Shown: positions 7,601 to 23,245 of the stretch, in pieces | Layout: each line of letters begins with the position of its first letter | Numbering within the stretch: position 1 is the first letter of the stretch | Source: Sulfitobacter sabulilitoris | GTDB lineage: Bacteria; Pseudomonadota; Alphaproteobacteria; Rhodobacterales; Rhodobacteraceae | Assembly (NCBI RefSeq): GCF_005887615.1 | Contig: NZ_VANS01000002.1 | Span: 248,001-312,000 of the forward strand | Reading direction: 5' to 3' | Length of the DNA stretch: 64,000 nucleotides | Made by a program: the position numbers and the translations under genes | Notes under the pieces: model-generated | What the model was told of the DNA's origin: nothing | The model's database searches: none | The model's input: the letters and a program-made list of their open reading frames with translations, nothing else

Positions 7601-8929
7601 TCAACGGTCAGCCAGCGTCAAACCCGCATAGACCAGCGGCATGATCGCCCGCCGCGCGCGCCCCAACGGAAAGCGCGTCAGGGGCCTTTGCATAGCTGCG
7701 GGATAAGGTCTCATCGGGGTCTTGCCTTGCGCCAGATCCGCCAGGATTGCGCCGCTGTATGTCCCCATTGCAACGCCGTTGCCATGATAGCACAGGCCGG
7801 CCCACAGGCCCGGCGCATCCGGCACGGCCCCGACAAAGGGCAGCCTGTCGCGCGCAAGGCAGACCATGCCGGACCAGTTATGGTGCACGTCGACATGCGC
7901 CCAAGCGGGAAACATGGCATCGAAATCGCGGCGGATGCGCGCCCGCGCCCGCCGTTCTGCCGACGGTCCGGTCATCAAACCGCCGCGCATCCCGAACAGG
8001 AACCTCCGGTCCGGCATCAGACGGAAATAATGCAGCAGATGCCGCGTGTCATAGGCCATCTGAGCACTCGACCACCCGGAGGCCGAGACCTCCGCCTCGC
8101 TCAGCGGTCGGGTCACCATCACGTTGGACTGCCCCGGCATGTACCGACCCGCCAGCCAATCCGGCAGATCTTCGCTCGAATACCCGTTGGTCGCAATCAC
8201 GACCTGATCGGCGGCCACCGTTCCGCCGTCGGTTTGCACGGCATGGTGCCGCCCGACCCGGACCAGGCCGCGCACCGGGCTGTGCTGATGAATCTGCGCG
8301 CCTGCGGCAGTGGCGGCGCTCAGCAGGCCGGACAGATATTTGCGCGGGTTCAGGCCAAAACCGACGGGGACGGTCAGTGCCCCGTGAAACGGGCCCGCCA
8401 TCCCCTGGTCGCGCAGATCGCGCGCCGCGATCAGCGTCGGCGTGATACCGTAGTTTTCCGTGACGGTTGCGGCATGCCTTTCCAGGTCGTCCATATCCGA
8501 CGGACGATGCGCCAGCGTGGTTTCACCGTTCGAATGGCGGTCCGCTTCGATGCGATGCGTGTCGATCAGATCTCCGACCAGCGTCACGGCCGCCTGCTCT
8601 GCCTGGCGATACTCCAGCCGGCCCGCGCGCCCGACGCGGCGGTCGAGCGCGTCATCGCTCAGCATTCCACCGCCCAGGCAACAAAACCCGCCGTTTCGCC
8701 CCGATGCACCCCAACCGGGCGCCTGCGCCTCGACCACCGCGACGCGCGCGCCCGCCTGTGCCAGATGCAATGCCGCCGACAGGCCGGTGAACCCCGCCCC
8801 GACGATCGCGACATCGGCGCGATGCGCACCCTGCAGGGCCGCGCCTTTCGGCAGATCGCAGGTTTCGTCCCACCAACACCCCGACCGGGGACCAGCGCCA
8901 TAGGCGTACTCGGAAAAGATGCGCCTCAT
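7601..8929 (-). CDS. FAD-dependent oxidoreductase, DAO family (PuuB-like)
   Basis: 442-residue amine oxidase of the D-amino-acid-oxidase superfamily. The Rossmann FAD motif VAIVGAGFTGLSAALHLAQAG is near residue 40 and the GWGASGRNGGF stretch is typical of PuuB/OrdL-type enzymes; a C-terminal GLCYHGNGVAMGTYSG closes the FAD site. It is the last gene of the potFGHI unit (ATGA overlap with the permease gene), which points to oxidation of putrescine or a gamma-glutamylated or N-substituted derivative. The exact substrate cannot be read from the sequence. Confidence 0.82.
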   Translation of the reverse strand: MRRIFSEYAYGAGPRSGCWWDETCDLPKGAALQGAHRADVAIVGAGFTGLSAALHLAQAGARVAVVEAQAPGWGASGRNGGFCCLGGGMLSDDALDRRVGRAGRLEYRQAEQAAVTLVGDLIDTHRIEADRHSNGETTLAHRPSDMDDLERHAATVTENYGITPTLIAARDLRDQGMAGPFHGALTVPVGFGLNPRKYLSGLLSAATAAGAQIHQHSPVRGLVRVGRHHAVQTDGGTVAADQVVIATNGYSSEDLPDWLAGRYMPGQSNVMVTRPLSEAEVSASGWSSAQMAYDTRHLLHYFRLMPDRRFLFGMRGGLMTGPSAERRARARIRRDFDAMFPAWAHVDVHHNWSGMVCLARDRLPFVGAVPDAPGLWAGLCYHGNGVAMGTYSGAILADLAQGKTPMRPYPAAMQRPLTRFPLGRARRAIMPLVYAGLTLADR

Positions 8930-9744
8930 GCGGCGCGCGCGGCGGCCTGTTCGTCGCGCTGAATCCGCAGGCTGTTGCGCTTTGAGACCAAAGAGGCGCT
9001 GATCACGCCCACCGCCACGATCGCGATCATGATCGTCGACAGCGCGTTGATCTCGGGCGAGACGCCCAACCGCACGGCCGAGAAGATCTTGATCGGCAGC
9101 GTCGTGGCCGACGGCCCCGCCGTAAAGGACGCGATCACCAGATCGTCAAGCGACAGGGTGAAGGCCAGCAGCCACCCCGAGATTACCGCAGGTGCAATGA
9201 TCGGCAGGGTGACGAGGCGAAAGGCGTCAAAGCTCGAACATCCCAGATCAAGCGCGGCTTCTTCCAATGATTGATCAAAGGTCATCAGCCGCGACGACAC
9301 CACGACCGAAACATAGCACATCGAAAAAGTCGTATGCGCCAGCACGATCGTCAGAACCCCCCGGTCGAGACCGATGCCGATGAACAGCAGCAGCAGCGAC
9401 AGGCCGGTAATCACCTCCGGCATCACCAGCGGCGCATAAATCATGCCGGAAAAGAGCGTCCGGCCCCAGAATCGCCCGCTGCGGACAAGAACATAGGCGG
9501 CCATCGTGCCCAGCAGCGTCGCGATGGTCGACGACATCACCGCAACCTGCAACGTGACCCAAGCCGCGTCCAGAAACGCCTCGTTCTGCAATAGCTCGGC
9601 GTACCATTTGGTCGAGAAGCCCGCCCAGACGGTGACCAGTTGCGACGCGTTGAAGCTGTAGATCACCAAAATGACCATCGGCAGATACAGGAACGCAAAG
9701 CCCAGTGTGATCGAGGTGACGTTGAACCAGCTCATCTTGGTCAT
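8926..9744 (-). CDS. potI: Putrescine ABC transporter permease PotI
   Basis: 272-residue inner-membrane permease with six hydrophobic segments, and the EAA loop (EEAALDLGCSSFDAFRLVTLPIIAPAV) that contacts the ATPase. It is the PotC/PotI-type subunit of the polyamine transporters. It overlaps potH upstream and the FAD oxidase downstream by four bases each, so translation of the whole unit is coupled. PotF next to it makes putrescine the likely substrate. Confidence 0.9.
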   Translation of the reverse strand: MTKMSWFNVTSITLGFAFLYLPMVILVIYSFNASQLVTVWAGFSTKWYAELLQNEAFLDAAWVTLQVAVMSSTIATLLGTMAAYVLVRSGRFWGRTLFSGMIYAPLVMPEVITGLSLLLLFIGIGLDRGVLTIVLAHTTFSMCYVSVVVSSRLMTFDQSLEEAALDLGCSSFDAFRLVTLPIIAPAVISGWLLAFTLSLDDLVIASFTAGPSATTLPIKIFSAVRLGVSPEINALSTIMIAIVAVGVISASLVSKRNSLRIQRDEQAAARAA

Positions 9745-10616
9745 TGATCTGCCTCCGACTGACGCTGCTGGTTGCGCTGGAACAGGATGATGGGGACGAT
9801 CAGGATCAGCAGCAGGATCACCGCGACGGCGCTTGCCACCGGCCAGTCGCGATTGTTAAAGAACTCCTCCCACAGGACCTTGCCAATCATAAGCGTTTTC
9901 GATCCACCCAGAAGCGACGGGATCACGAATTCACCCAGCGCGGGGATGAACACGAGGAAAGATCCCGCAATGATGCCATTCTTGGACAGCGGCACCGTCA
10001 CCAGCCAGAACGCCTTGAGCCGCGAGCAGCCAAGGTCTTCTGCCGCCTCGATAAGCGACGCGTCCAGTCGATCAAGCGCCGCATAGATGGGCAGGATCAT
10101 GAACGGCACGTAGGTATAGACGATGCCGATATAGACCGCCGTTGTGGTATTCAGGATCGTCAGCGGTTCGGCGATCACGCCGGTCCACAGCAGAAACTGA
10201 TTGAGAAACCCCTCACCGCTGAGAATACCCATCCAAGCATAGACACGAATGAGAAAACTGGTCCAGAACGGCAGGATCACCAGCATCATCAGCGTGGCGC
10301 GCCATTCTTCCGGCGCGCGGGCCATCGCATAGGCCACCGGATAGCCCACCATCAAGGTCAGCACGGTAGAGATCGCGGCAATGCGCAGGCTGCTCAGATA
10401 TGCTTTCCAGTAAAGATCATCCGACGCGAGGAAGGCGAAATTCTCGAAGTCGAGCCCGTCGATGAAAGCGCGCAACCCCTGGTCAAGCGTCGGCGTATAG
10501 GGCGGAATCGCAAGATCGGTATCCGAGAGCGAGATTTTCAGCACGATGAGGAAGGGCACCAGAAACAGCGCCAGCAGCCAGAGGTAAGGCAGCGCTATGA
10601 GGGCCGCGCGCTTCAT
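9741..10616 (-). CDS. potH: Putrescine ABC transporter permease PotH
   Basis: 291-residue PotB/PotH-type permease with a hydrophobic N-terminal segment (ALIALPYLWLLALFLVPFLIVL) and an EAA loop containing EAAEDLGCSRLKAFWLVTVPLSKNGI. The start at 10616 gives an ATGA overlap with potG; the longer in-frame reading to 10658 would run 43 bases into potG and is rejected. Together with PotI it forms the translocation pore. Confidence 0.9.
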   Translation of the reverse strand: MKRAALIALPYLWLLALFLVPFLIVLKISLSDTDLAIPPYTPTLDQGLRAFIDGLDFENFAFLASDDLYWKAYLSSLRIAAISTVLTLMVGYPVAYAMARAPEEWRATLMMLVILPFWTSFLIRVYAWMGILSGEGFLNQFLLWTGVIAEPLTILNTTTAVYIGIVYTYVPFMILPIYAALDRLDASLIEAAEDLGCSRLKAFWLVTVPLSKNGIIAGSFLVFIPALGEFVIPSLLGGSKTLMIGKVLWEEFFNNRDWPVASAVAVILLLILIVPIILFQRNQQRQSEADQ

Positions 10617-11740
10617 CGGTCGAGCAGCACACCGGCGGTGGCGGTCCAGCTGACCCAAACCGGATCTTCCCAGGTAAAGCTGCGACGCGACACGCGGCGG
10701 GTGTTGGCGGTCTGTGCCTTGATCACCTTACCGCTTTGCAATTCAACGTGATAGGTGCTGAGATTGCCCAGATACGCGATGTCCAGCACCTTGCCCTGAA
10801 GCGCGTTGTCCGCGTCGGCGGGCCGATCCGCCGAAATCGCGATCTTTTCCGGGCGCACCGCCAGATGGCAGGTCTGCCCCTCGCTGAAATTCTTGTCGCT
10901 GGCGGCGATGTTGGGTTCGCGCCCCTCGGACCAGTGAACCTGGTAAAGGCCTTCACCTGCGGGTTTGACCGTTCCGGTCAGGATATTCACGTCGCCGATA
11001 AAATCCGCGACATAGGATGAATTGGGCGCTTCATAGATCTTTTCGGGCGTCGCCACCTGCATGATGCGCCCTTCGTCCATCACGGCCACGCGGGACGCGA
11101 CGGTCATCGCTTCTTCCTGGTCATGAGTCACGATGACGAACGTCGTCCCGGTCTTTTCCTGGATATCCACCAATTCGAACTGCGTCGCCTGCCGCAATTT
11201 CGCATCCAGCGCACCCAGCGGTTCGTCCAGCAGCAACAGCTTGGGCGCCTTGGCCAGGCTGCGCGCAAGGGCGACCCGCTGGCGCTGGCCTCCGGAAATC
11301 TGATGCGGCTTGCGTGCGGCGAATTTCTCAAGCCGCGTCAGCTTGAGCATCTCGTCCACGCGGTCGGCGATGTCATGTTTCGGCATGTCGCCCCGGCGCA
11401 GGCCGAAGGCGATATTGTCATAGACCGTCAGATGCGGAAACAGCGCATAGGACTGGAACATCATGTTCACCGCCCGCTTGTTGGGCGGTACCGGCACGAT
11501 GTTCTGGCCCGACAGTTCGATCACGCCTTCGGTCGGGTTTTCAAACCCCGCCAGCATGCGCATCATCGTCGTCTTGCCACAGCCGGACGGCCCGAGCAGG
11601 GCAAAGAATTCGCGCTCATAGATATCGAGCGTCAGATCGTCGATGGCCGTGAAATCGCCAAATCGCTTGGTCACGCCCTTGAAGCGGATCAGCGGTTTTT
11701 CCTTGGGGTCGTCCCAAGGCGCAAAAACGGTCTGGTTCAC
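10613..11740 (-). CDS. potG: Putrescine ABC transporter ATP-binding protein PotG
   Basis: 375-residue ATPase. Walker A is GPSGCGKTTM (near residue 55), the signature is ISGGQRQRVALARSLA, Walker B is KLLLLDEPLGALD, and the H-loop is VTHDQEEA. A C-terminal TOBE/OB domain (HLAVRPEKIAIS) is present, as in PotA/PotG. It follows potF after an 82-base gap carrying an intrinsic terminator, so it is likely expressed at a lower level than the binding protein. Confidence 0.93.
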   Translation of the reverse strand: MNQTVFAPWDDPKEKPLIRFKGVTKRFGDFTAIDDLTLDIYEREFFALLGPSGCGKTTMMRMLAGFENPTEGVIELSGQNIVPVPPNKRAVNMMFQSYALFPHLTVYDNIAFGLRRGDMPKHDIADRVDEMLKLTRLEKFAARKPHQISGGQRQRVALARSLAKAPKLLLLDEPLGALDAKLRQATQFELVDIQEKTGTTFVIVTHDQEEAMTVASRVAVMDEGRIMQVATPEKIYEAPNSSYVADFIGDVNILTGTVKPAGEGLYQVHWSEGREPNIAASDKNFSEGQTCHLAVRPEKIAISADRPADADNALQGKVLDIAYLGNLSTYHVELQSGKVIKAQTANTRRVSRRSFTWEDPVWVSWTATAGVLLDR

Positions 11741-11775
11741 GATAAGTCCTTACTTCGCCCCAAGACGGGAAACCG

Positions 11776-11804
11776 AAAAAAGGCGAGACCGAAGCGGTCT
11801 CGCC
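11776..11804 (-). terminator. Intrinsic terminator/attenuator between potF and potG
   Basis: Perfect 9-bp stem GGCGAGACC / GGTCTCGCC (11782-11790 and 11796-11804) with a five-base loop; on the minus strand it is followed by six T residues (11776-11781). It lies inside the potF-potGHI operon, so it should let most transcripts stop after potF and some read through. Confidence 0.88.
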
Positions 11805-11822
11805 TTTGTACCGTCGCGCAGA

Positions 11823-12905
11823 TCAGGTTCCCGATTTGATCTTGGTCCAGAGCCGGGTCACGACCCGCTGAACCTTTTGCGGATAGGGCGTGGTGGTGAA
11901 CAGGTTTTCCAGCGTCGCCTCGCTGGGATAGATTGCCGGATCGCCGATCACGTCCTCGACCAGGTATTCCTGGCTCGCCTTGTTGCCGTTGGCGTAATAG
12001 ACGTAGTTCGATGCCGCCGCCATGTTCTGCGCATCCATGATGAAGTTCAAAAAGACATGCGCGGCCTCGGGGTTGGGCGCATCCACCGGAATCGCCATCT
12101 GGTCGAACCACATCTGCGCACCCTCGTTCGGCGCGTTATAGGCAATCTCGACCCCGTTGTCGGCCTCGGCCGCGCGGTCGCGTGCCTGCAGGATGTCACC
12201 GGACCAACCCACCGCGACACAGATGTCGCCATTGGCCAGCGCGTTGATGTATTCCGAGCTGTGGAATTTCTGGATATAGGGACGGACCGGCATGAACACG
12301 CCTTCCGCCTTGGCGATCACGTCCGGATCGTGGCTGTCGGGGTCTTCGCCGATGTAATTCAGCGCGGCGGGAATCATCTCTGCCGGCGCGTCGAGGAAAT
12401 GCACGCCGCATTCCGCCAGCTTTTCCATGTTTGCCGGATCGAACACCAGGCTCCAACTGTCGATCGGGGCATCCTCGCCAAGGATCTCCTGTACCTTGCC
12501 GACGTTCACGCCAATGCCCGTGGTTCCCCACATGTAATTGATCGAATAGGCGTTTTCGGGGTCATACTGCTCCGTGCGCGATGTCACGACATCCCACATG
12601 TTGTCCATGTTGGGCAGCTTGTCGCGGTCGAGCTTTTGAAATGCGCCCGCGGTGATCTGGCGCTGCAGGAAGGTGCCCGACGGCACGACCACGTCATAGC
12701 CCGACCCACCGGCCAGCATCTTGGTCTCCAGCACTTCGTTGCTGTCAAAGACGTCATAGACAAGGTCGATGCCGGTTTCGGCCTCGAACTTCTCCAGCAG
12801 ACTTTCGTCGATATAGTCGGACCAGTTATAGACCCGCACTTCCTCGGCGGTGGCCTGGCTTGCGATCAGCACGGCAGCGGCGCTGCTCAGCATAAGGTAT
12901 TTCAT
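11823..12905 (-). CDS. potF: Putrescine-binding periplasmic protein PotF
   Basis: 360-residue binding protein with a signal peptide (MKYLMLSSAAAVLIASQATA). The mature part shows strong PotF features: YNWSDYIDESLLEKFEAETG, VFDSNEVLETKMLAG, CGVHFLDAPAEM, FHSSEYINALANGDICVA and a C-terminal WTKIKSG. The ATG at 12905 has GGGAGA upstream; the ORF extension to 12980 is not used. It delivers putrescine to PotGHI. The promoter must lie in the 163 bases shared with the divergent GntR gene. Confidence 0.93.
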   Translation of the reverse strand: MKYLMLSSAAAVLIASQATAEEVRVYNWSDYIDESLLEKFEAETGIDLVYDVFDSNEVLETKMLAGGSGYDVVVPSGTFLQRQITAGAFQKLDRDKLPNMDNMWDVVTSRTEQYDPENAYSINYMWGTTGIGVNVGKVQEILGEDAPIDSWSLVFDPANMEKLAECGVHFLDAPAEMIPAALNYIGEDPDSHDPDVIAKAEGVFMPVRPYIQKFHSSEYINALANGDICVAVGWSGDILQARDRAAEADNGVEIAYNAPNEGAQMWFDQMAIPVDAPNPEAAHVFLNFIMDAQNMAAASNYVYYANGNKASQEYLVEDVIGDPAIYPSEATLENLFTTTPYPQKVQRVVTRLWTKIKSGT

Positions 12906-12950
12906 GTGTGTCTCCCGGTAGGTGGTAGCCGGATTTTTCCGGTCTGAACG

Positions 12951-12960
12951 AATTTGATCA
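12951..12960. promoter_or_regulatory. Candidate GntR operator, copy 1 (AATTTGATCA)
   Basis: The 10-mer AATTTGATCA lies in the potF/gntR divergent promoter region, 45 bases upstream of the potF start, and continues as TTGATCAAG, an 8-bp palindrome plus flank. The identical 10-mer recurs at 13782-13791 in front of the aminotransferase gene on the other side of the regulator. Assignment to the GntR protein is inference. Confidence 0.45.
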
Positions 12961-13068
12961 AGTTTTGCCTCTTTCGGCAAGATGATTTATGGTTTCACGC
13001 ACCGGGGCCACACGCAAGGGACCGACCGCACCGGTCGCGCCAATGCCACGGAATCCAAGGGAGACGCG

Positions 13069-13773
13069 ATGCAAATGCTCAGAAATCCAGCACCGGACGA
13101 CCCGATTGAAGGCGGCAAACTTCCCGCCCATCAGTCGGTCTATGAGCAGTTGCGCACGCGGATGCTCTTTGGTGATCTGGTGCCCGGTCAGGCTGTCACC
13201 ATCCAGGGGCTCACGCAAGAAATGGGCGCCGGCATGACGCCGGTGCGCGAAGCGATCCGTCGGCTGATTTCCGATGGGGCGCTGACCATGCAGGGCAATC
13301 GTCGCGTCAGCGTTCCCGTGCTTACACCAGGCTGCATCGAACAACTTGAATTCATGCGACAAACGCTTGAGCCGCAGCTTGCGCGACTGGCCGCGAAACG
13401 TATTGACGGCGATGCGCTTGGCCTCTTGCGCGATCAGGACGACGCCCTGAACATCGCCATAGATCGCGGCGATATTCCGGGGTATCTGACCCATAACTAC
13501 CGCTTTCACACCATCCTCTACGCCAGCGCAGAAGCGCCCATTCTGGCGGCTACGGTAGACCGGCTCTGGCTGCGCTTCGGGCCGTCGCTGCGGGTGGTCT
13601 GCGGGCGGTATGGCACGCAGAACCTGCCGGACAAACACGCCGATCTGATGACCGCGCTGATCGACCGCGATCCGCAAGCCGCTGCGCTTGCCGTGGCCGA
13701 GGACGTCAGTCAGGGGATGCGACAGATTCTTGCCGCGCTGGACCCCTCCGCAGCGGCGATGCGATTCGATTGA
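13069..13773 (+). CDS. GntR-family (FCD-type) transcriptional regulator
   Basis: 234-residue regulator. The N-terminal winged helix has SVYEQLRTRMLFGDLVPGQAVTIQGLTQEMGAGMTPVREAIRRLISDGAL, which is the GntR pattern with the recognition helix at TPVREAIRRL. The C-terminal domain is all-helical like FCD ligand-binding domains (FMRQTLEPQLARLAA, then HTILYASAEAPIL). The start at 13069 follows GGGAGA. Position between potF (divergent) and the aminotransferase gene strongly suggests control of polyamine use, with putrescine or a product as effector (inferred). Confidence 0.88.
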   Translation: MQMLRNPAPDDPIEGGKLPAHQSVYEQLRTRMLFGDLVPGQAVTIQGLTQEMGAGMTPVREAIRRLISDGALTMQGNRRVSVPVLTPGCIEQLEFMRQTLEPQLARLAAKRIDGDALGLLRDQDDALNIAIDRGDIPGYLTHNYRFHTILYASAEAPILAATVDRLWLRFGPSLRVVCGRYGTQNLPDKHADLMTALIDRDPQAAALAVAEDVSQGMRQILAALDPSAAAMRFD

Positions 13774-13847: not shown

Positions 13848-15272
13848 ATGACCTCGATCACCAATCACATGCCCACGGCAGAGCTTCAGGCGCTGGACGC
13901 GGCGCACCACATGCACCCCTTCACCACGAACGACGAGCTGAGCGCCAAGGGCGCGCGCATCATCACGCGGGCCAAGGGCGTGTACCTGACCGACAGCGAG
14001 GGCAACGAGATCCTTGACGGCATGGCGGGTCTTTGGTGCGTCAACATCGGCTATGGCCGCCCCGAAATGGCCGAGGTCGCATCGCGGCAGATGATGGAAC
14101 TGCCGTTCTACAACACCTTCTTCATGACAAGCCATGTGCCCGCCATCGCGCTGGCGTCGGAGCTGGCAAAACTGGCGCCCGAAGGGTTGAACCACGTGTT
14201 CTTTGCCGGATCGGGGTCAGAGGCGAACGATACCAACCTGCGCATGGTCCGCACCTACTGGGCCGAAAAGGGCCAGCCGCAGCGGTCGCATGTGATCAGC
14301 CGCAAGAACGCCTATCACGGGTCGTCCATGGGGTCGGGATCGTTGGGCGGCATGACCTACATGCATGAACAGGGTGGCCTGCCCATCCCCGGCATCCATC
14401 ACATCAACCAGCCTGACTGGTGGGCCGAAGGCGGCGATATGACGCCCGAGGATTTCGGCCTTGCCCGCGCGCAGGAGCTTGAAGCGAAGATCCTGGAGCT
14501 GGGCGCGGACAACGTTGCCGCCTTTATCGCGGAGCCGGTGCAGGGCGCGGGCGGCGTGATCGTGGCCCCCGATACCTATTGGCCGGAAATTCAGCGCATC
14601 GTCGACAAATACGGCATCTTGCTGATCGCGGACGAGGTCATCTGCGGTTTTGGCCGCACCGGCAACTGGTTCGGCAGCACCACGGTGGGCATCCGCCCGC
14701 ATATCATGACCATCGCCAAGGGCCTCAGCTCGGGCTATCAGCCCATCGGCGGGTCAATCGTATGCGACGAGGTGGCCGAGGTCATCAACGCCTGCGAATT
14801 CAACCACGGCTACACCTATTCCGGTCACCCTGTTGCCGCCGCTGTGGCGCTTGAAAACCTGCGGATACTGCAGGAGGAAAACGTACTCGACCACGTGCGC
14901 AACGTCTCGGGCCCCGCGCTCAGGGCCGGCTTGGAAAAACTCGCCGATCATCCGCTGGTTGGCGGCGTGAACATCAAGGGGCTGATGGCGTCGCTGCCGC
15001 TGACGCCTCACAAGGCGACGCGCGCCAAGTTCGCCGGGCAGACGGGAACCGCCGGGTTCATGTGCCGCGAGCGGTGCTTTGCCAACAACCTCGTGATGCG
15101 CCACGTCGGCGACCGCATGATCATTTCACCGCCCCTGGTCATCACGCCCGAGGAAATCGACGTGTTCATGTCCCGTGCGAAAACCGCTTTGGATGAAACC
15201 TACGCCGCGCTGAAAGACGGCGATCTTCTGAAGCCCGCGGATCAGCACGACGCACCCTCCCCGCTGGGATAA
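13848..15272 (+). CDS. spuC: Class III aminotransferase, putrescine-pyruvate type (SpuC-like)
   Basis: 474-residue PLP enzyme. Visible class III features are DGMAGLWCVNIGYG, FFAGSGSEANDTNLRM, the AFIAEPVQGAGGV stretch, LLIADEVICGFGRTG and the PLP lysine in TIAKGLSSGYQPIG. These match SpuC-type enzymes, which move an amino group from putrescine to pyruvate and give 4-aminobutanal. AAAGG precedes the ATG. Context with potFGHI and the GntR regulator supports putrescine as donor; taurine or beta-alanine transaminases are related alternatives. Confidence 0.85.
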   Translation: MTSITNHMPTAELQALDAAHHMHPFTTNDELSAKGARIITRAKGVYLTDSEGNEILDGMAGLWCVNIGYGRPEMAEVASRQMMELPFYNTFFMTSHVPAIALASELAKLAPEGLNHVFFAGSGSEANDTNLRMVRTYWAEKGQPQRSHVISRKNAYHGSSMGSGSLGGMTYMHEQGGLPIPGIHHINQPDWWAEGGDMTPEDFGLARAQELEAKILELGADNVAAFIAEPVQGAGGVIVAPDTYWPEIQRIVDKYGILLIADEVICGFGRTGNWFGSTTVGIRPHIMTIAKGLSSGYQPIGGSIVCDEVAEVINACEFNHGYTYSGHPVAAAVALENLRILQEENVLDHVRNVSGPALRAGLEKLADHPLVGGVNIKGLMASLPLTPHKATRAKFAGQTGTAGFMCRERCFANNLVMRHVGDRMIISPPLVITPEEIDVFMSRAKTALDETYAALKDGDLLKPADQHDAPSPLG

Positions 15273-15302: not shown

Positions 15303-16460
15303 TCAGACCAGCCGCCCGCCCAGACGGTCAAGCATCGTCAGGCACTGCTGCAACTGGTCGAGGCTGACGAACTCATCCGCCTTGTGCGCCTGCGCGATCG
15401 ATCCCGGACCGCAGACGACCACATCCATCCCCATCTCCTGGAACAGGCCCGCTTCGGTGCCAAAGGGCACCACGTCCGCGCTGTTGGCCCCGGTCAGATC
15501 CGCCACAAGATCGCGCGCGGCATTTTCGGCCATCGGCTCAAGGCCCGTCACCTCGCCCAGGGTTTGCGTGGAGATGTCGGCGGCGGGATGGACCGCGCGC
15601 ATCGCGGGCAGCAATTCGGTCTCGATATAGGCGGCGAGCGTGGTCTTGACGAAATCGATGTCGATTTGCTGTACTGGGCGCATTTCCCAATCGACCTCGG
15701 CGCGGCCGGCAATCACGTTATGCGCCACACCACCGGCGATGCGCCTGATGTTCAACGTGGTATGCGCCGGGCGAAATCGGCTGCCCGATGGCGCCCGCGC
15801 GATCAATTCCGCGCGCAACGTGAGCAACCGGCCAACATAACGCACGGCATATTCCACGGCATTCACGCCCGCATCCGGGTCCGACCCGTGCCCTTCCAGA
15901 CCGCTGAACTGCGTGGTGTATTCACAACAGCCCTTGTGCCCTTCGATCACGCGCATTTCCGTCGGTTCACCGATGATGGCAATGTCGGGGCGCAGTCCGC
16001 GCGCCTTGAGTTCGGGCACCAACGCCCGTGCCCCGATGCAGCCGGTTTCCTCGTCATGGGTAAAGGCGAAATGCACCGGGCGGGTCAGCGACAGATCCGC
16101 ATAGCGCCGCGCCATCACCAGGCTGGCGGCGATGAATCCCTTCATGTCACAGGTGCCGCGCCCGAAAAGCTTGTCCCCCTCGCGGCGCAGCACGAAAGGC
16201 TCGCTGGTCCAGTCCTGATCGGCGACCGGAACGACATCGGAATGCCCCGACAGCAGTATGCCTCCCGGCCCCTCCGGCCCCAGCGTCGCGAACAGGTTGG
16301 CCTTGGTGCCGCTCTCGTCGGCAAAAACCTCGCCCCGCGCGCCCAGACCGGCCAGATATTCGGCCAGATCGCCGATCATGTCGACGTTGCTGTCAGTTGA
16401 AATCGTCGGGTAGGACACGAGACGATCCAGCAGGTCGACCGTGTCCTCCAGCGCGGTCAC
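15303..16460 (-). CDS. argE: M20 family deacylase, ArgE-like
   Basis: 385-residue zinc hydrolase. Metal and catalytic residues are visible in LSGHSDVVPV (His), GTCDMKGF (Asp), FTHDEETGC (catalytic Glu-Glu), GEPTEM and the C-terminal AHKADEF (His). This is the ArgE/DapE clan, annotated as acetylornithine deacetylase. A GTG start at 16460 gives a GTGA overlap with the upstream hydrolase gene; the longer ATG-initiated reading would run about 100 bases into that gene. Translational coupling to the EutD/DoeA-like gene suggests it removes an acyl group from that enzyme's product rather than serving arginine synthesis. Confidence 0.8.
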   Translation of the reverse strand: MTALEDTVDLLDRLVSYPTISTDSNVDMIGDLAEYLAGLGARGEVFADESGTKANLFATLGPEGPGGILLSGHSDVVPVADQDWTSEPFVLRREGDKLFGRGTCDMKGFIAASLVMARRYADLSLTRPVHFAFTHDEETGCIGARALVPELKARGLRPDIAIIGEPTEMRVIEGHKGCCEYTTQFSGLEGHGSDPDAGVNAVEYAVRYVGRLLTLRAELIARAPSGSRFRPAHTTLNIRRIAGGVAHNVIAGRAEVDWEMRPVQQIDIDFVKTTLAAYIETELLPAMRAVHPAADISTQTLGEVTGLEPMAENAARDLVADLTGANSADVVPFGTEAGLFQEMGMDVVVCGPGSIAQAHKADEFVSLDQLQQCLTMLDRLGGRLV

Positions 16461-17641
16461 GGCTTGACGAACATCTGGCGGGGACGGTTGCAGAATGTCT
16501 CTGCGGGTCCATCGGCGCGTATGCGGATGCTTTCGGTTATTTCCAACCCCCAATCCTGCATCCACAGGCCGGGCATGAAATGAAACGTCATATCGGGCTC
16601 CAGCACGCTTTCATCCTCCGCACGCAGGGAAATCGTCCGCTCGCCCCAATCGGGCGGATAGCTCAGCCCGATCGGATAGCCGCAGCGCGCCCCGCGTTCG
16701 ATGCCCGCCCTCTCCAGCGGGGCGGCCAGCGCATTTGCCACGTCGCAGGCGCGATTGCCCGCGCGCGCCTTGTCCAGCCCCGCCTCCAATCCTTCGACCA
16801 GCGCCGCCTCGGCGCGTTTCAGGAAATCCGGCGGCTCGCCCAGAAACAGCGTTCGGCACAACGGCGCATGGTAGCGGCGATAGCAGCCCGAAATTTCGAA
16901 AAACGTGGCCTCTCCGCTGGCAAAGGGCCGCCCGTCCCAGGTCAGGTGCGGTGCGGCGGCGTCCGCGCCCGACGGCAACAGCGGCACGATCGCCGGATAA
17001 TCGCCCCAGACACCTTCAACCCCGCGCAGCGCATCGCGGTAGATCTCCGCCACGATTTCGTTCTTGGGCACGCCCGGTTCCACCCGCTCCAGCAGCCCGT
17101 CGATGATCCGCTCCGAGATCTTCGCGGCATTGCGCATATAGGCCAGCTCCGGCGCGGACTTGATGCAGCGCTGCCAGTTGACCAAGGCCGTCGCATCGAC
17201 CAGCTGCACGCCGGGCAGCGACCCGGCCAGAACGATATGGGCCTTGGCGGAATAATAGTAGTTGTCGGTCTCGACTCCGATCATCCCGGTTTCTAGCCCG
17301 AGACCCTTGAGCCTGTCCGCAAGATCCTGCATCGGATGCAGATCGACCGCCTGTACATAGTGATCCGCATAGCCAAAGACACTGTTCTGTCCCATCCAGA
17401 CGGTGCGCAGGGCGCCGTTGGTGTCCTGGTTTCTGCCCCACCAGATCGGATCGTCGTCCGGCAGGACGATGACCCCCTGATGCACGTAGAAAGACCAGCC
17501 ATCGTATCCGGTCAGCCACGCCTGGTTGGACGGGTCCGTCACGAACAGCGCGTGCAGACCGCGCGCATCCATTTCCGCGCGGACCAACGACAGCCGGCGG
17601 GCGTATTCGATCGCGTCAAATGGCAAGTCAATGGCCGGCAT
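16457..17641 (-). CDS. Creatinase/M24-fold hydrolase, ectoine hydrolase (EutD/DoeA)-like
   Basis: 394-residue protein with a creatinase N-terminal domain (WLTGYDGWSFYVHQGVIV) and a pita-bread C-terminal domain. Four of the five metal ligands of M24 peptidases appear replaced: the ID.G and D.TRT aspartates (here EISG and APLCRT), the GHG histidine (here GYPIGL) and the EPG glutamate (here MPG). The final glutamate (ITESI) and the substrate-side PH histidine remain. The stretch GYPIGLSYPPDWGERT resembles EutD/DoeA, which opens the ectoine ring. Classical partners of the ectoine pathway are absent, so another cyclic amidine or amide substrate is possible. Confidence 0.65.
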   Translation of the reverse strand: MPAIDLPFDAIEYARRLSLVRAEMDARGLHALFVTDPSNQAWLTGYDGWSFYVHQGVIVLPDDDPIWWGRNQDTNGALRTVWMGQNSVFGYADHYVQAVDLHPMQDLADRLKGLGLETGMIGVETDNYYYSAKAHIVLAGSLPGVQLVDATALVNWQRCIKSAPELAYMRNAAKISERIIDGLLERVEPGVPKNEIVAEIYRDALRGVEGVWGDYPAIVPLLPSGADAAAPHLTWDGRPFASGEATFFEISGCYRRYHAPLCRTLFLGEPPDFLKRAEAALVEGLEAGLDKARAGNRACDVANALAAPLERAGIERGARCGYPIGLSYPPDWGERTISLRAEDESVLEPDMTFHFMPGLWMQDWGLEITESIRIRADGPAETFCNRPRQMFVKP

Positions 17642-17919
17642 TCCAGGGTCCGCTTCTGATCGGAAATAAAAGGAATCCTGTGCCAGCCGCGCCCTTCACA
17701 CAAGGAAATTGTTTGAGGCATGACGTGTGGCGCGACCCTCGTCTGACCAAAAAAACAGCAGGAAAATTGACTGATTATCCTGATTTATTAGGTATTTGGC
17801 CTGCATTTGACTGGATTTGGAACATCGGAGAGTTAATTGGTTGCATCAGCAACGGCGGTTCGTGTTAGCTTGCACTCAACAAGTGCGGATAACCGCCAAG
17901 TCCAACGGGGAGCCGAATT
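17642..17919. promoter_or_regulatory. Divergent promoter region of the hydrolase and transporter units
   Basis: A 278-base, comparatively AT-rich gap between divergent units. It contains a short perfect inverted repeat, GTTGC-atca-GCAAC (17840-17853), about 70 bases before the transporter start. A shared regulatory region is expected, but no regulator gene is adjacent and no clear -35/-10 pair was found. Confidence 0.4.
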
Positions 17920-19020
17920 TTGGCCGATACGACATCCAACGACGCCTTCGTCGAATTCGATCGCGTGCAGAAAAGTTACGACGGCGAAAACCTTGTCGTC
18001 AAAGATCTGAACCTCTCGATGCCCAAGGGTGAGTTTCTCACCATGCTTGGACCGTCCGGCTCGGGCAAGACGACTTGCCTGATGATGCTGGCCGGGTTCG
18101 AGACCGCTACCCATGGCGACATTCGCCTGGACGGGAAATCGATCAACGACATTCCGCCCCACAAGCGCGGGATCGGAATGGTGTTCCAGAACTACGCCTT
18201 GTTTCCGCACATGACGGTGGCGGAAAACCTGTCCTTTCCGCTGGAAGTCCGCAAAATCGGAAAATCCGATCGCGAGGACAAGATCAAGACGGCGCTCGAC
18301 CGGGTGCAGATGGGCAGCTTTGCCGGGCGTCGCCCCGCGCAATTGTCGGGTGGACAGCAGCAGCGTATCGCCCTCGCACGTGCGCTGGTGTTCGAACCCG
18401 AACTGGTGCTGATGGACGAACCGCTGGGCGCGCTCGACAAGCAGCTGCGCGAAACCCTGCAGTTCGAGATCACCAACCTCGCACACGAGCTGGGCATCAC
18501 CGTCGTTTACGTGACGCACGACCAGACAGAGGCGTTGACCATGTCGGACCGTGTTGCGGTGTTCGACGATGGCCGCATTCAGCAGCTGGCGCCGCCAGAC
18601 AAGTTGTATGAAGAGCCCGAAAACAGCTTCGTGGCGCAGTTCATCGGCGAAAACAACACGCTTGAGGGCGTGGTCAAGGAAATCAAGGGCGGTTATGCCG
18701 TGGTTGAACTTGACGGTGGCGCGCTGATCGACGCCAAGCCGATCAACGTGAGCAAGGCCGGGGAGCGCACCCGCGTGTCGATCCGCCCTGAACGCGTTGA
18801 ATACAACAAGGAACGTCTCAGCCCGGATGCGCATACGCTGAAGGCCGAGGTTCTCGAATTCATCTATATGGGCGATATCTTTCGCACGCGCCTGCGGGTT
18901 GCCGGAAAGGACGATTTCGTCATCAAGACCAGAAACGCACCCGATCAGGTGCGCCTGAAACCCGGTCAGCAAATCGACATTGGTTGGCTGCCGGACGATT
19001 GCCGCGCGCTGGACGCCTGA
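17920..19020 (+). CDS. Polyamine-type ABC transporter ATP-binding protein
   Basis: 366-residue PotA-like ATPase with Walker A GPSGSGKTTC, signature QLSGGQQQRIALARAL, Walker B LVLMDEPLGALDKQ, H-loop VTHDQTEA and a C-terminal TOBE domain (RVSIRPERVEYN). Translation starts at TTG (17920) with GGGGAG upstream; no ATG fits. First gene of a four-gene transporter unit. It belongs to the polyamine/opine/iron-related PotA group, so the substrate is not fixed by this subunit. Confidence 0.9.
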   Translation: MADTTSNDAFVEFDRVQKSYDGENLVVKDLNLSMPKGEFLTMLGPSGSGKTTCLMMLAGFETATHGDIRLDGKSINDIPPHKRGIGMVFQNYALFPHMTVAENLSFPLEVRKIGKSDREDKIKTALDRVQMGSFAGRRPAQLSGGQQQRIALARALVFEPELVLMDEPLGALDKQLRETLQFEITNLAHELGITVVYVTHDQTEALTMSDRVAVFDDGRIQQLAPPDKLYEEPENSFVAQFIGENNTLEGVVKEIKGGYAVVELDGGALIDAKPINVSKAGERTRVSIRPERVEYNKERLSPDAHTLKAEVLEFIYMGDIFRTRLRVAGKDDFVIKTRNAPDQVRLKPGQQIDIGWLPDDCRALDA

Positions 19021-19154
19021 CGCTGGTCGTCAGAGCCGCGCGCGCAGTGTCGCAGCGTCCCCAACCGGGGCGCGCGATGTTCCAAGAGGCTGTGAAGAAG
19101 CCCGTCATCGCAACCTCACGACTCAAACGGGTAACAAATGGGAGACTATCCATA

Positions 19155-20261
19155 ATGAAACTCACGAAGACTATACTTGCATCAACGGCCCTGACCGCCG
19201 TGGCGAGCATGGCCTCGGCCGAAGCTCACATGGCAAACGAAATGACGATCGTCAGCTGGGGCGGCGCCTACTCCAATTCGCAGCAGCAGGCGTATCACAA
19301 CCCCTACATGGAAATGACCGGCGTTGAGATCATCAACGACGAATCCTCTGCCGAAGCGGTTGCGAAACTGCGCGCGATGAACGAAGCGGGCAATGTGACA
19401 TGGGACGTCGTCGACGTTGTCGCATCCGATGCCATCCGCCTGTGCGACGAAGGCCTGGCGATGGAAATCGACCCTGACGAGATGCTGGCAGACGCCCCCG
19501 ACGGCACCTCCGCCGAGGATGACTTCGGCGACCTGCTGGTCAGCGACTGCTTCATTCCGCAGATCGTGTACTCCACGACCTTCGGCTATCGCACCGACAT
19601 GGTGGGTGACACACCGCCGACATCCGTCTGCGCCGTGTTCGACACCGAAACCTATCCGGGCAAGCGCGCGCTGGAAAAGCGTCCGATTAACAACATGGAA
19701 TGGGCGCTGCTCTGTGACGGTGTGGCCAAGGAAGACGTCTATGACGTGCTGGAGACCGAAGAAGGTCAGCAGCAGGCCTTGGACAAGCTCGACACCATCA
19801 AGGACGATGTGATCTGGTGGTCCGCGGGCGCCGACACGCCCCAGCTTCTGGCTGACGGTGAAATCGTCATGGGTTCGACCTACAACGGTCGCCTGTTCTC
19901 GCTCATCGAAGAGCAGGACCAGCCCGTCGGCATGCTGTGGGACGCGCAGGTGTTCGACCTTGACGGTTGGATTATTCCCGCCGGCCTGAGCGACGAGCGC
20001 AAGGCGCGTGCACTTGACTACATCAAGTTCGCCACCGACACGCAGCGTCTGGCGGACCAGGCGAAATACATCAGCTACGGTCCGGCGCGCAAGTCCTCGG
20101 CACCGCTGGTGGGCAAGCACGCCGAACTGGGCATCGAGATGGCACCCCATATGCCGACCGATCCCGAAAACGCCAAGAACACGTTCCTCTACAACTACGA
20201 GTTCTGGGCCGACTATCGCGACGACATCGACGCGAAATTCCAGGCGTGGCTGGCACAATAA
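19155..20261 (+). CDS. Periplasmic binding protein of the second polyamine-type transporter
   Basis: 368-residue PotD/PotF-clan (SBP_bac_8-like) protein. A signal peptide ends at ASMASA (residue ~22); the mature part begins with EMTIVSWGGAYSNSQQQAYHNPY, the form seen in binding proteins annotated for putrescine/spermidine-like cargo. It lacks the YNWSDY and FDSNEVLE motifs seen in PotF, so its ligand probably differs from the first transporter. The ATG at 19155 follows GGGAGA. A much longer reading from 18984 is rejected because it overlaps the ATPase gene and lacks a signal peptide at its start. Confidence 0.87.
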   Translation: MKLTKTILASTALTAVASMASAEAHMANEMTIVSWGGAYSNSQQQAYHNPYMEMTGVEIINDESSAEAVAKLRAMNEAGNVTWDVVDVVASDAIRLCDEGLAMEIDPDEMLADAPDGTSAEDDFGDLLVSDCFIPQIVYSTTFGYRTDMVGDTPPTSVCAVFDTETYPGKRALEKRPINNMEWALLCDGVAKEDVYDVLETEEGQQQALDKLDTIKDDVIWWSAGADTPQLLADGEIVMGSTYNGRLFSLIEEQDQPVGMLWDAQVFDLDGWIIPAGLSDERKARALDYIKFATDTQRLADQAKYISYGPARKSSAPLVGKHAELGIEMAPHMPTDPENAKNTFLYNYEFWADYRDDIDAKFQAWLAQ

Positions 20262-20357
20262 GCCGCTAAGCTTTCGGAAGGGGCCCATCGCGGCCCCTTC
20301 CACCCCTTATTCGTTTTTCCCTTTACCTTCCTTCTCTCCAAACCCGATGGGGGCGAC

Positions 20358-22061
20358 ATGAGCGATGTAACCGACGCCACGACAGCCAATCAGGCACCGA
20401 CACCCGACGACGCCGCGCGGCTTGCCGACAGCAAGAAGGCAGGACCGGTGCTCGCCGCGGACGGCACACCGCTCAAGCGCAGTCTGAATCGCGCCCTTCG
20501 CCGCCAGAAATTGCGGGCGCTGATGCTGGTTGCACCGCTACTGATCTTTGTCCTGCTCACCTTTATCGCGCCGATCGCTGACATGCTGTTCCGCTCGGTG
20601 GAAAACCAGATCGTGTCGGAAACGCTGCCGCGCACCACCGACTTGTTGGGGGATTGGGATGCCGATGCGGGTGCCTTGCCCGAGGCTCCGGTCTACAAGG
20701 CGCTCTACGAAGACATTTTCATTGCGCAGGAACGCAAGGAGCACACGCGCCTTGGGTCGCGCCTGAACTATGAGCTGACGGGCGTATCATCGCTGTTTCG
20801 CAAATCCGGCCGCAAAGTCGAGGATATGGGCGAAGTCTACCAGGACCAGTTCGAAGACCTCGATGAATTCTGGGAAAAGGGCGAAAACTGGAATCAAATG
20901 ATGGGGTCGGACGACTGGCTCGCCGATCATGCCGCCTGGAACGAAGACTCCGGCGACCGCCAGCCCCGCTTCGAGCTGCGCGACGACATCGCGGAACTGC
21001 TGCCGGAAACAGCAGCGAAATACGAGATCTTCGCGAATTTCGTGCAGGTCGAAGACGAGGACAACCTTTATACCGAAGACCCGTGGGCCGTGGTTTATTC
21101 CGCGCTCTACGATGATCTGACCGGTCCCAACGCCGCGCAGATCGCCAACTATTCCGGCTTTGGCGCCGACAAGCTGCAGGCCGCCGCCGCAGCGGTCTCG
21201 GAGTTCGAGACTGTCGATTTTGCCGCCGCCTTCGAAGACATCGACAAGGACTGGAGCAGCATGGACGTCTGGCAGACGATCCAGATGTACAGCCCGAAAT
21301 ACACCTCCGGTTACTTCCTGAACGCCGTGGACATGCAAAAGACACCGGACGGCCCGGCGTTGCGCGATGAAAACGAACGCATCTATGGCACGCTCTTCAT
21401 GCGTACGATGTTCATGTCGCTGATGATCACCGGCAGTTGCATCCTGCTTGGGTATCCGGTCGGCTGGATCCTGGCCAACCTGCCCGCGCGCACGGCCAAC
21501 CTTCTGATGATCCTCGTGCTACTGCCGTTCTGGACATCGCTGCTGGTGCGCACCTCTGCGTGGAAGGTAATGCTGCAACAGCAGGGCGTGATCAACGACA
21601 CGCTTGTCTGGCTCGGCGTGGTGGCCGACGACAGCCGGCTTGCGCTGATCAACAATCAGACCGGCACGATCATCGCGATGACGCATATTCTGCTGCCCTT
21701 CATGATCCTGCCGCTTTATTCGGTGATGCAGACGATACCGCCGACCTATCTGCGGGCCGCCAAATCACTGGGCGCCACGAACTGGACAGCCTTCTGGCGG
21801 GTCTATTTCCCGCAGTCCGTTCCGGGCATCGGCGCCGGGTCGATTCTCGTGTTCATCCTGTCCATCGGTTACTACATCACGCCTGAAATCGTGGGTGGTA
21901 CGACGGGCACATTCATTTCCAACCGGATTGCCTATCATATCTCCAGTTCGCTGAACTGGGGACTGGCCGCCGCGCTTGGGACAATCCTGCTTGCCGTCGT
22001 ACTTGGGCTCTACTGGGCCTATGACAAGATCGTCGGCATCGATAACGTGAAACTGGGGTAA
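20358..22061 (+). CDS. PotB-type ABC permease with a large inserted domain
   Basis: 567-residue permease, nearly twice the usual 280-310. The first ~50 residues are cytoplasmic and charged, followed by TM1 (residues 53-78). Then comes an insertion of about 265 residues (~80-345) without any hydrophobic segment, very rich in Asp and Glu (for example DLDEFWEKGENWNQMMGSDD). The remaining transmembrane segments and the EAA loop (RAAKSLGATNWTAFWRVYFPQS) follow as normal. By topology the insert should face the periplasm. The reading frame is intact throughout, so it is not a fusion artefact. Confidence 0.9.
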   Translation: MSDVTDATTANQAPTPDDAARLADSKKAGPVLAADGTPLKRSLNRALRRQKLRALMLVAPLLIFVLLTFIAPIADMLFRSVENQIVSETLPRTTDLLGDWDADAGALPEAPVYKALYEDIFIAQERKEHTRLGSRLNYELTGVSSLFRKSGRKVEDMGEVYQDQFEDLDEFWEKGENWNQMMGSDDWLADHAAWNEDSGDRQPRFELRDDIAELLPETAAKYEIFANFVQVEDEDNLYTEDPWAVVYSALYDDLTGPNAAQIANYSGFGADKLQAAAAAVSEFETVDFAAAFEDIDKDWSSMDVWQTIQMYSPKYTSGYFLNAVDMQKTPDGPALRDENERIYGTLFMRTMFMSLMITGSCILLGYPVGWILANLPARTANLLMILVLLPFWTSLLVRTSAWKVMLQQQGVINDTLVWLGVVADDSRLALINNQTGTIIAMTHILLPFMILPLYSVMQTIPPTYLRAAKSLGATNWTAFWRVYFPQSVPGIGAGSILVFILSIGYYITPEIVGGTTGTFISNRIAYHISSSLNWGLAAALGTILLAVVLGLYWAYDKIVGIDNVKLG

Positions 22062-22066
22062 AGATC

Positions 22067-23245
22067 ATGGCCGCACTGACACCTATCTCCCGCACACCCG
22101 TCTCCTTCTATGTGCCCGTCGTGGCCGCGGCGGGGGCCTTTGCCGGCCTGTTTGTCGGCACCGCGCAGGGCAGCGGCCTGCTGGGCATCGTCGTCGGAGC
22201 CATCGCTATGGGCGCGCTGGCCTATGTGCTGACGCAGATCATCAAGTCCGAAACCCCAAGCCGCTGGGGCACGGTCGTTCTGTTGGCGGTGGTCGGCTAT
22301 TTCCTCGGCGGTTTGCCCGCCATGGTGATCGGCGGAATATTTGGCTGGCTGTTCGCCTGGTTCAGCTTTTGGCTTTACGAGGGCCGATACCGCGCCAAGG
22401 TTCCACCATACCTCACACCGATGCAGGTCTTGTGGCATTTCACGTTCCGGGTGATCTGCGGTGCGATCCTGGTGTTCCTGATCACACCGATCCTCGTGGT
22501 CATGCCGCTCAGCTTCAACGCCGAAAATTTCTTTACCTTCACTCCGGAAATGCTGCGTTTCGATCCGGCAGGGTATTCGCTCAAGCACTACCGCGACTTC
22601 TTCAGCAGTTCCGATTGGCAGAACGCTCTGCGCAATTCGGTGATGATCGCGCCCGTGGCGACGCTTTTGTCGGTCAGCTTCGGCACGCTTGCCGCGATCG
22701 GCCTAAGCCAACCGCATGTACCATTCCGCCGTGCCATCATGGCGGTGCTCATCTCTCCGATGATCGTGCCGCTCATCATTTCCGCTGCCGGCATGTACTT
22801 CTTCTATAGCAGGATCGGCCTGCAAGGCACGTACCTGGGCGTGGTGTTGGCGCATGCCGCGCTTGGCATTCCGTTTGTCATCATCACGGTCACGGCGACA
22901 CTGGTCGGCTTTGACCGGTCGCTGACACGGGCCGCGGCCAACATGGGCGCCAATCCTGTCACGACATTCTTTCGGGTTCAGATGCCGCTTATTCTGCCGG
23001 GGGTGATTTCGGGCGGGCTGTTCGCCTTCATCACGTCGTTTGACGAGGTCGTCGTGGTATTGTTTGTCGGCTCCGCCGGTCAGAAAACGCTGCCATGGCA
23101 GATGTTCACCGGTCTGCGCGAACAAATCAGCCCGACCATCCTGGCGGTGGCCACGATCCTCGTGATCATCTCGATCTGCCTGCTGACCACGGTCGAGCTT
23201 TTGCGTCGCCGCTCGGAAAGGTTGCGCGGCATGTCGCCCGGTTAA
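22067..23245 (+). CDS. PotC-type ABC permease with an N-terminal membrane extension
   Basis: 392-residue permease. The C-terminal ~260 residues are a normal PotC subunit with EAA loop (TRAAANMGANPVTTFFRVQMPLI). The first ~125 residues add three or more hydrophobic segments rich in Gly and Ala (VPVVAAAGAFAGLFVG, LAVVGYFLGGLPAMVIGGIF) not found in standard PotC. It starts five bases after the partner permease stop. Both permeases of this transporter are therefore enlarged. Confidence 0.9.
   Translation: MAALTPISRTPVSFYVPVVAAAGAFAGLFVGTAQGSGLLGIVVGAIAMGALAYVLTQIIKSETPSRWGTVVLLAVVGYFLGGLPAMVIGGIFGWLFAWFSFWLYEGRYRAKVPPYLTPMQVLWHFTFRVICGAILVFLITPILVVMPLSFNAENFFTFTPEMLRFDPAGYSLKHYRDFFSSSDWQNALRNSVMIAPVATLLSVSFGTLAAIGLSQPHVPFRRAIMAVLISPMIVPLIISAAGMYFFYSRIGLQGTYLGVVLAHAALGIPFVIITVTATLVGFDRSLTRAAANMGANPVTTFFRVQMPLILPGVISGGLFAFITSFDEVVVVLFVGSAGQKTLPWQMFTGLREQISPTILAVATILVIISICLLTTVELLRRRSERLRGMSPG

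Follow-up and report, generated by a model that had tools for sequence, protein, structure and literature searches.

Ectoine is a widespread compatible solute that gives protection against salt and is also used as a nutrient. In the EutD-EutE (DoeA-DoeB) systems of Ruegeria pomeroyi, Sinorhizobium meliloti and Halomonas elongata, a EutD-like hydrolase of the M24 family is encoded together with a downstream deacetylase. Likewise, in the window studied here (the whole analysed stretch of 64,000 nucleotides from Sulfitobacter sabulilitoris, part of contig C12 of the 3.94 Mb genome G000), an M24 creatinase-fold hydrolase gene is joined to a downstream deacylase gene, and the relatives of this pair share the eutB, eutC, asnC, ssd and aminotransferase genes with the EutD-EutE systems. 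However, the deacetylase is AspA/AstE-like in the described systems and M20/ArgE-like in the window, and the window M24 protein belongs to a separate clade. Comparison of the sequences suggests that the M24-M20 pair is probably the core of a variant degradation pathway for ectoine (5-hydroxyectoine).

In the proposed route the M24 enzyme would open the ectoine ring to N-acetyl-2,4-diaminobutyrate, like EutD/DoeA, and the ArgE-like M20 enzyme would remove the acetyl group to give diaminobutyrate, replacing the unrelated AspA/AstE-type DoeB/EutE. Aspartate would then be formed by an aminotransferase and a dehydrogenase; dedicated ones are present in the cluster of a good part of the relatives. 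In genomes without EhuABCD and UehABC, the substrate may be taken up by a divergent ATP-binding cassette (ABC) transporter of the gamma-aminobutyric acid (GABA) type. The computed results concern protein families, residue conservation, co-occurrence, mutual exclusion with DoeB and gene linkage, and all reactions, the ligand and the regulation are inferred. A first-pass annotation of the locus had suggested an uptake-and-hydrolysis module for an acylated or cyclic diamine-type compound, being either a variant of the known systems or one with a new substrate. The hydrolase pair suits such a compound, and the variant lies in the deacetylase and the transporter, although the transporter is not exclusive to the pair. 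A new substrate is not needed, as the evidence points to ectoine/5-hydroxyectoine: a known pathway with a differing deacetylase is well supported by comparative genomics.

The hydrolase-deacylase pair

The two genes of the pair are as follows.

15303..16460, minus strand: M20 ArgE-like deacylase, 385 amino acids from GTG 16460; proposed N-acetyl-L-2,4-diaminobutyrate deacetylase replacing DoeB/EutE
16457..17641, minus strand: M24 creatinase-fold hydrolase, EutD/DoeA-like putative ectoine hydrolase (TIGR02993), 394 amino acids

The stop codon of the M24 gene (TGA, 16459-16457) and the start of the M20 gene (GTG, 16460) share the GTGA overlap that had been described earlier, and all six genes (the pair and the four transporter genes) were found at the coordinates given then. 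The listed M20 open reading frame (ORF) begins upstream of the GTG and has 420 amino acids.

The closest solved structures to the window M24 protein are those of DoeA (6twk, 6twj). In a tree of 130 M24 relatives, made without the copy from locus L020 (in-frame stop) and two fragments from L134, it falls within a clade of 85 (Shimodaira-Hasegawa-like approximate likelihood ratio support 99, stem 0.39), which stands apart from the DoeB-linked EutD proteins of the same tree. When 142 invariant positions were defined on 12 DoeB-linked EutD proteins (11 loci and 6twk), 113 of them reached a conservation of 95% or more among the clade members, and 29 did not. E255, which we take to be the catalytic residue of DoeA, is present in 84 of the 85 clade proteins. 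Conserved residues and fold neighbours thus point to an enzyme of the EutD/DoeA type, and it is very likely that the M24 protein acts on ectoine. Two further observations concern M24 genes. In L020 the M24 gene with one in-frame stop (10001-11170) adjoins an open M20 gene and the transporter, and a second M24, distantly related (26-31% identity), lies within or next to the ectoine operon of L056, L058, L063, L065, L066, L070 and L073.

The M20 protein scores above the cut-offs of two acetylornithine deacetylase models (NF005710 447.8, cut-off 412; TIGR01892 350.5, cut-off 297.7), and E. coli ArgE is the top structural match of its predicted structure (predicted local distance difference test, pLDDT, 95.8). 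Residues H73, D75, D105, E137, E138, E165 and H359, presumably metal-binding, are invariant in all 54 aligned proteins; the structure alignments dropped hits with stops or less than 90% coverage and used 54 of 73 M20 and 43 of 61 binding-protein rows, window included. By family score, fold and metal-site residues the protein is thus an ArgE-type M20 enzyme, and deacetylation of acetyl-diaminobutyrate is quite likely its function. The scores over the acetylornithine deacetylase cut-off and the ArgE fold would also suit a chance overlap between the genes of a peptidase and of an ArgE for arginine biosynthesis, but this housekeeping explanation is highly improbable because arginine synthesis would not confine the M20 type to genomes with EutD, where 158 of its 162 carriers are found. 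Moreover, 7 of 20 inspected M20 loci away from clade M24 genes are linked to ectoine genes.

Distribution across the family

The distribution was determined from complete per-genome tables of 394 genomes of the same family, where EutD required a match of at most E 1e-115, which left 10 genomes with weaker matches as negative, and the M20 type was scored at E 1e-100 or better. The M20 type is present in 158 of the 244 EutD genomes versus 4 of the 150 without. Among the EutD genomes, 155 have only the M20, 46 only DoeB, 3 both and 40 neither. The exclusion is seen also in the 99 EutD genomes outside the M24 clade, with 25 having only the M20, 46 only DoeB, 1 both and 27 neither. Fisher P-values for these associations range from 9e-8 to 2e-40, but they ignore kinship among the genomes and are a guide only. 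DoeB exceeds the TIGR02994 cut-off of 402.7 in 50 of the 394 genomes, two of which are in the M24 clade: in G013 DoeB lies behind a second, classical EutD, and in G266 it is on a different contig from both EutD copies. The M20 gene is directly downstream of the M24 gene on the same strand in at least 114 of the 145 clade genomes, overlapping in at least 47. The pairing is far above chance, and this adjacency led us to reject a lone chance overlap of the two genes.

Two published surveys of the pathway cover 363 eutD/eutE pairs (PMC8739950) and 575 EutDs mainly from genomes with EutD, EutE and EutB (PMC13188858). As they select EutD and EutE together, the M20 variant would be left out. If our reading is correct, surveys requiring EutE undercount the ectoine consumers of this family, possibly by a factor of several (of the 244 EutD genomes, 158 have the M20 and 49 have DoeB), and many marine Rhodobacterales counted as non-consumers would be ectoine degraders. 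The reported interplay of EutD and EutE could also be compared with that of an unrelated partner enzyme. In the open-access literature searched, we came across no description of proteobacterial ectoine catabolism that involves an M20 deacetylase or a Pot-type transporter. Another M20 enzyme is AbgB. Putative ectoine clusters of Bacillota are also without eutE and have another amidohydrolase gene (abgB; PMC13188858), with function there unproven, and they differ from the pair in phylum, gene order and M24 lineage.

Ectoine genes in related loci

Conservation of the neighbourhood in other genomes had been set as a check beforehand, and it was found: in 80 named loci, the surroundings of the closest M24 relatives, the M20 adjoins the M24 in 67 and the transporter is near in 37, and DoeB is found in none. 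Other partners are aat (33 loci), asnC (22), ssd (21), eutB (19), eutC (19) and ehuABCD (9), and at least one of these is present in 35 of the 80. In L045 (Rhizobium), L058 (Nitratireductor) and L065 (Stappia), ehuBCDA-eutB-eutC-asnC-ssd-aat is divergent from M24-M20. In L016 and L017 (Roseovarius) and L026 and L032 (Pseudooceanicola), eutB-eutC-asnC-ssd-aat is followed by a transporter of the window type, ehu being replaced; of these four only L032 has the M20 adjoining the M24. The ehuABCD genes are divergent from the clade M24 in all nine loci where they occur, eight with an adjacent M20 and seven from Rhizobiaceae, Phyllobacteriaceae or Stappiaceae. A gene for a GntR/FCD protein, taken from one cluster, recurs in 27 loci, where the gene strings place it after the pair. 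The MocR/EnuR-type regulator (query from L008) differs in that it gave only two weak matches (23-24% identity) in the 80 loci; in L010 and L011, both textbook loci, the identity is 32-34%.

An M20 beside every clade M24 was expected, and 13 of the 80 loci were found without one. In 12 of these genomes (L089, a 4-kb contig, was left out), an M20 of the same type is present elsewhere in 8 and not in 4; these copies are 61-65% identical, and the other M20 matches 34-43%. Away from clade M24 genes the M20 type occurs in at least 36 places, of which 20 were hand-picked for inspection. In the 7 loci linked to ectoine genes it adjoins aat, asnC, ssd, eutB or eutC, and in 3 (L160-L162) it adjoins the transporter without a clade M24. 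In genome G002 the M20 is with the transporter in L160, and EutD with asnC-ssd-aat is apart in L101.

Several observations weigh against an ectoine pathway, as do some on the transporter taken up below. The window M24 protein scores 577.3 bits with the NCBIfam ectoine hydrolase model TIGR02993, under the cut-off of 613. No transporter, ehu or ectoine partner was found in 17 of the 80 loci, some of them on short contigs, and neither M20 nor DoeB is present in 13 of the 145 clade genomes and 27 of the 99 other EutD genomes. L162, with M20 and transporter, comes from a genome (G119) that also carries DoeB. Because the genomes are related, the Fisher P-values overstate independence. The window's own genome has no close DoeD and no EutB over its cut-off, which leaves the pathway there incomplete as known. 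Finally, in two plasmid loci (L006 10001-11179 and L007 4460-5638), a clade M24 without M20 lies near a mandelate-racemase-like gene and two short-chain dehydrogenase/reductase genes. The L006 cluster additionally has MttB-like and Rieske genes, and the M24 enzymes of L006 and L007 may have a different substrate.

Together with the long separate stem and substitutions where DoeA is invariant, S268C and D243G (6twk numbers) among them, the low model score and the different gene cluster of L006 and L007 would fit an M24 clade whose substrate is a different cyclic amidine or N-acyl diamine, the M20 deacylating the product and the nearby ectoine genes being incidental. Model scores within the clade vary, however. 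Of nine other clade M24 proteins scanned, three exceed the DoeA cut-off (L058, L063, L065), all adjoining ehuABCD, and those of L058 and L065 stand in full ehuABCD-eutBC-asnC-ssd-aat clusters; the remaining six reach 574-602 bits, including that of L045, which also adjoins ehuABCD. As E255 and most of the DoeA-invariant residues are kept, and the mutual exclusion of M20 and DoeB extends beyond the clade, we regard another substrate as unlikely.

The divergent transporter and its ligand

Upstream of the pair lie the following features.

17642..17919, no strand: divergent intergenic region of 278 bases, presumed from its position only to hold both promoters
17920..19020, plus strand: ABC transporter ATPase, PotA-like (TIGR01187 374.9, cut-off 355.6)
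19155..20261, plus strand: substrate-binding protein of the GABA/opine-binding group, not PotF/PotD (Pfam SBP_bac_8); proposed ligand ectoine or GABA-like
20358..22061, plus strand: permease 1, PotB-like domain behind a long N-terminal part, 567 amino acids
22067..23245, plus strand: permease 2, PotC-like domain with extra N-terminal hydrophobic segments, 392 amino acids

The pair is indeed divergent from this four-gene transporter, with 278 bases between the M24 start and the ATPase gene. The permeases had been noted as enlarged, and this is so, the best PotB and PotC model matches beginning at residue 340 of permease 1 and residue 132 of permease 2. However, the enlargement is not special to this locus because the orthologous permeases share it (median ORF 532 amino acids in 37 loci and 396 in 31 loci). 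That the binding protein is unlike PotF was borne out, as its ORF (18984-20261) matches no NCBIfam model at E 0.001, thus neither PotF nor PotD, whereas a second binding protein of the window (11823-12980) matches the PotF and PotD models, under their equivalog cut-offs. The transporter had been called polyamine-type, and for the binding protein this is not supported, since those of its closest structural neighbours whose ligands are known bind GABA and opines. Unlike EhuABCD and UehABC, the latter a tripartite ATP-independent periplasmic (TRAP) system, the window transporter combines a PotA-like ATPase, a GABA-group binding protein and enlarged permeases. For Alphaproteobacteria, only Ueh and Ehu transporters are given in one survey (PMC13188858), and in R. 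pomeroyi potFGHI takes up cadaverine, putrescine and spermidine, and UehABC takes up ectoine (PMC10130141).

The closest structures to the modelled binding protein (pLDDT 91.5) are SAR11 PotD, Atu4243 and Pf622. The first of these, SAR11 PotD with GABA (8jv1), gives Z 43.8 with a root-mean-square deviation of 2.0 over 336 residues, and the sequences are 36-38% identical. Next come other GABA/opine binders and relatives without a ligand in their title (Z 32-39). An ordinary polyamine importer was rejected because no PotF/PotD model matches and the PotF and PotD structures reach Z about 28-29 versus 36-44 for the GABA group. In iGABASnFR2 (Pf622) the GABA site consists of W9, T13, F100, Y102 (F before engineering), W202, R205, D228 and Y264, of which D228 contacts the amino group of GABA (PMC12999171). 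Structural alignment maps this site to W35, Y39, I137, Y139, Y243, R246, D270 and Y308 of the window protein, so that the equivalents of W9, R205, D228 and Y264 are kept and those of T13, F100, F102 and W202 are changed. W35, Y39, I137, R246, D270 and Y308 are invariant in all 43 aligned binding proteins, and position 139 is Y in 31, F in 7 and W in 5. The nearest structures and the Arg/Asp zwitterion clamp place the protein in the GABA/opine-binding group. We read the modelled site as one for a zwitterion with a carboxylate, which would fit ectoine or GABA better than a polyamine. Import of ectoine by this transporter is, judged on its sequence and gene neighbours, an evenly balanced proposition.

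It could also be, with a probability somewhat below even, that the pair degrades ectoine but the transporter takes up something else, such as GABA or a further omega-amino acid from the breakdown of polyamines, the two sharing only their neighbourhood. An ectoine cassette would then have been inserted into a standing transporter/aminotransferase/PotFGHI locus. Several of the observations that speak against an ectoine transporter fit this explanation. The nearest structures bind GABA, and a pocket adapted in M24-linked binding proteins is unsupported, as W35, Y39, I137, R246, D270 and Y308 are identical in both contexts. The transporter is carried by 30 of 140 genomes without EutD. Among 20 hand-picked binding-protein loci away from clade M24 genes, 11 transporter copies adjoin the aminotransferase of the polyamine module, 10 of these with PotF. 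On the other hand, the transporter is found in 187 of the 244 EutD genomes versus 35 of the 150 without, and transporter and ehuABCD occur together in none of the 80 loci (37 and 9 singly). Its other neighbours include the M20 in loci that lack a clade M24 (L160-L162), EutD from different lineages (L108, L111), and EutA-like and further M24 genes (L041, L146, L161). Known ectoine importers were looked for in 28 of the 145 clade genomes (transporter within 9 kb of the M24) and in 3 DoeB controls, using the EhuB cut-off of 190.9 and, for UehA, E 1e-60 against one Leisingera protein. EhuB over its cut-off was found in 0 of the 28 genomes, the window's own included, and in 1 of the 3 controls; close UehA was found in 1 of the 28 and 2 of the 3, so that both are missing in 27 of the 28 clade genomes.

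The commoner ectoine route of this family could contain two non-orthologous replacements, M20 for EutE and, adding a third class to the ectoine importers, the ABC transporter of the GABA type; we consider this conceivable at slightly less than even likelihood. Its presence in EutD-less genomes and polyamine loci means that the transporter may have belonged to the polyamine locus for longer and been recruited later, or may be a system with several ligands. If ectoine is imported, a widespread transporter labelled 'polyamine' would gain a testable ligand.

Two side observations concern the transporter. In L041, L146, L155 and L161 it lies beside one or two further M24 proteins, with a EutA-like protein in L041, L146 and L161; two of the EutA-like proteins were scanned and score 150 and 157 bits with TIGR02990 (cut-off 318). 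In L046, L048, L049, L053 and L067 the binding protein is 46-49% and the ATPase 83-88% identical, and ligand specificity may have drifted there.

Neighbouring genes and the own genome

The other flank of the pair carries the following genes.

13848..15272, plus strand: class III aminotransferase (PRK07480 type), NF005682 746.6 versus cut-off 510; possible diaminobutyrate or putrescine aminotransferase
12982..13773, plus strand: GntR/FCD regulator of the polyamine module
8926..12980, minus strand: PotF, PotG and two PotHI-like permeases, a polyamine transporter module past the aminotransferase and outside the proposed ectoine unit

The aminotransferase gene is convergent with the pair at a distance of 30 bases, and beyond it follow the regulator and the PotFGHI transporter. 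In this module PotF (NF007962, 439.9 bits) and PotG (NF008621, 451.2 bits) score under the equivalog cut-offs, and TIGR01187 gives 398.7, over its cut-off of 355.6. The PotFGHI run ends with a flavin adenine dinucleotide oxidoreductase gene (7601-8929, minus strand), AmaA-like below cut-off.

The genome of the window has no DoeB at E 1e-40, no EhuB at E 1e-10 and no close UehA at E 1e-60. The later steps of the pathway would here need general enzymes, and since no close DoeD is present, a candidate for the diaminobutyrate step is the class III aminotransferase next to the pair. It shares only 36% identity with the aminotransferase dedicated to the cluster in L032 and is nonetheless the best match of that protein in the genome. 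An EctC-like gene, whose product scores above the ectoine synthase cut-offs, is located on contig C13 (L180, 7983-8390) between QueF and aldo-keto reductase genes, and ectA and ectB were not recognised among the nine ORFs scanned around it. Outside this family, L010 is a textbook doeA-doeB-ehu cluster on a Klebsiella pneumoniae plasmid, and the M24 query has matches in 281 plasmid records of Klebsiella.

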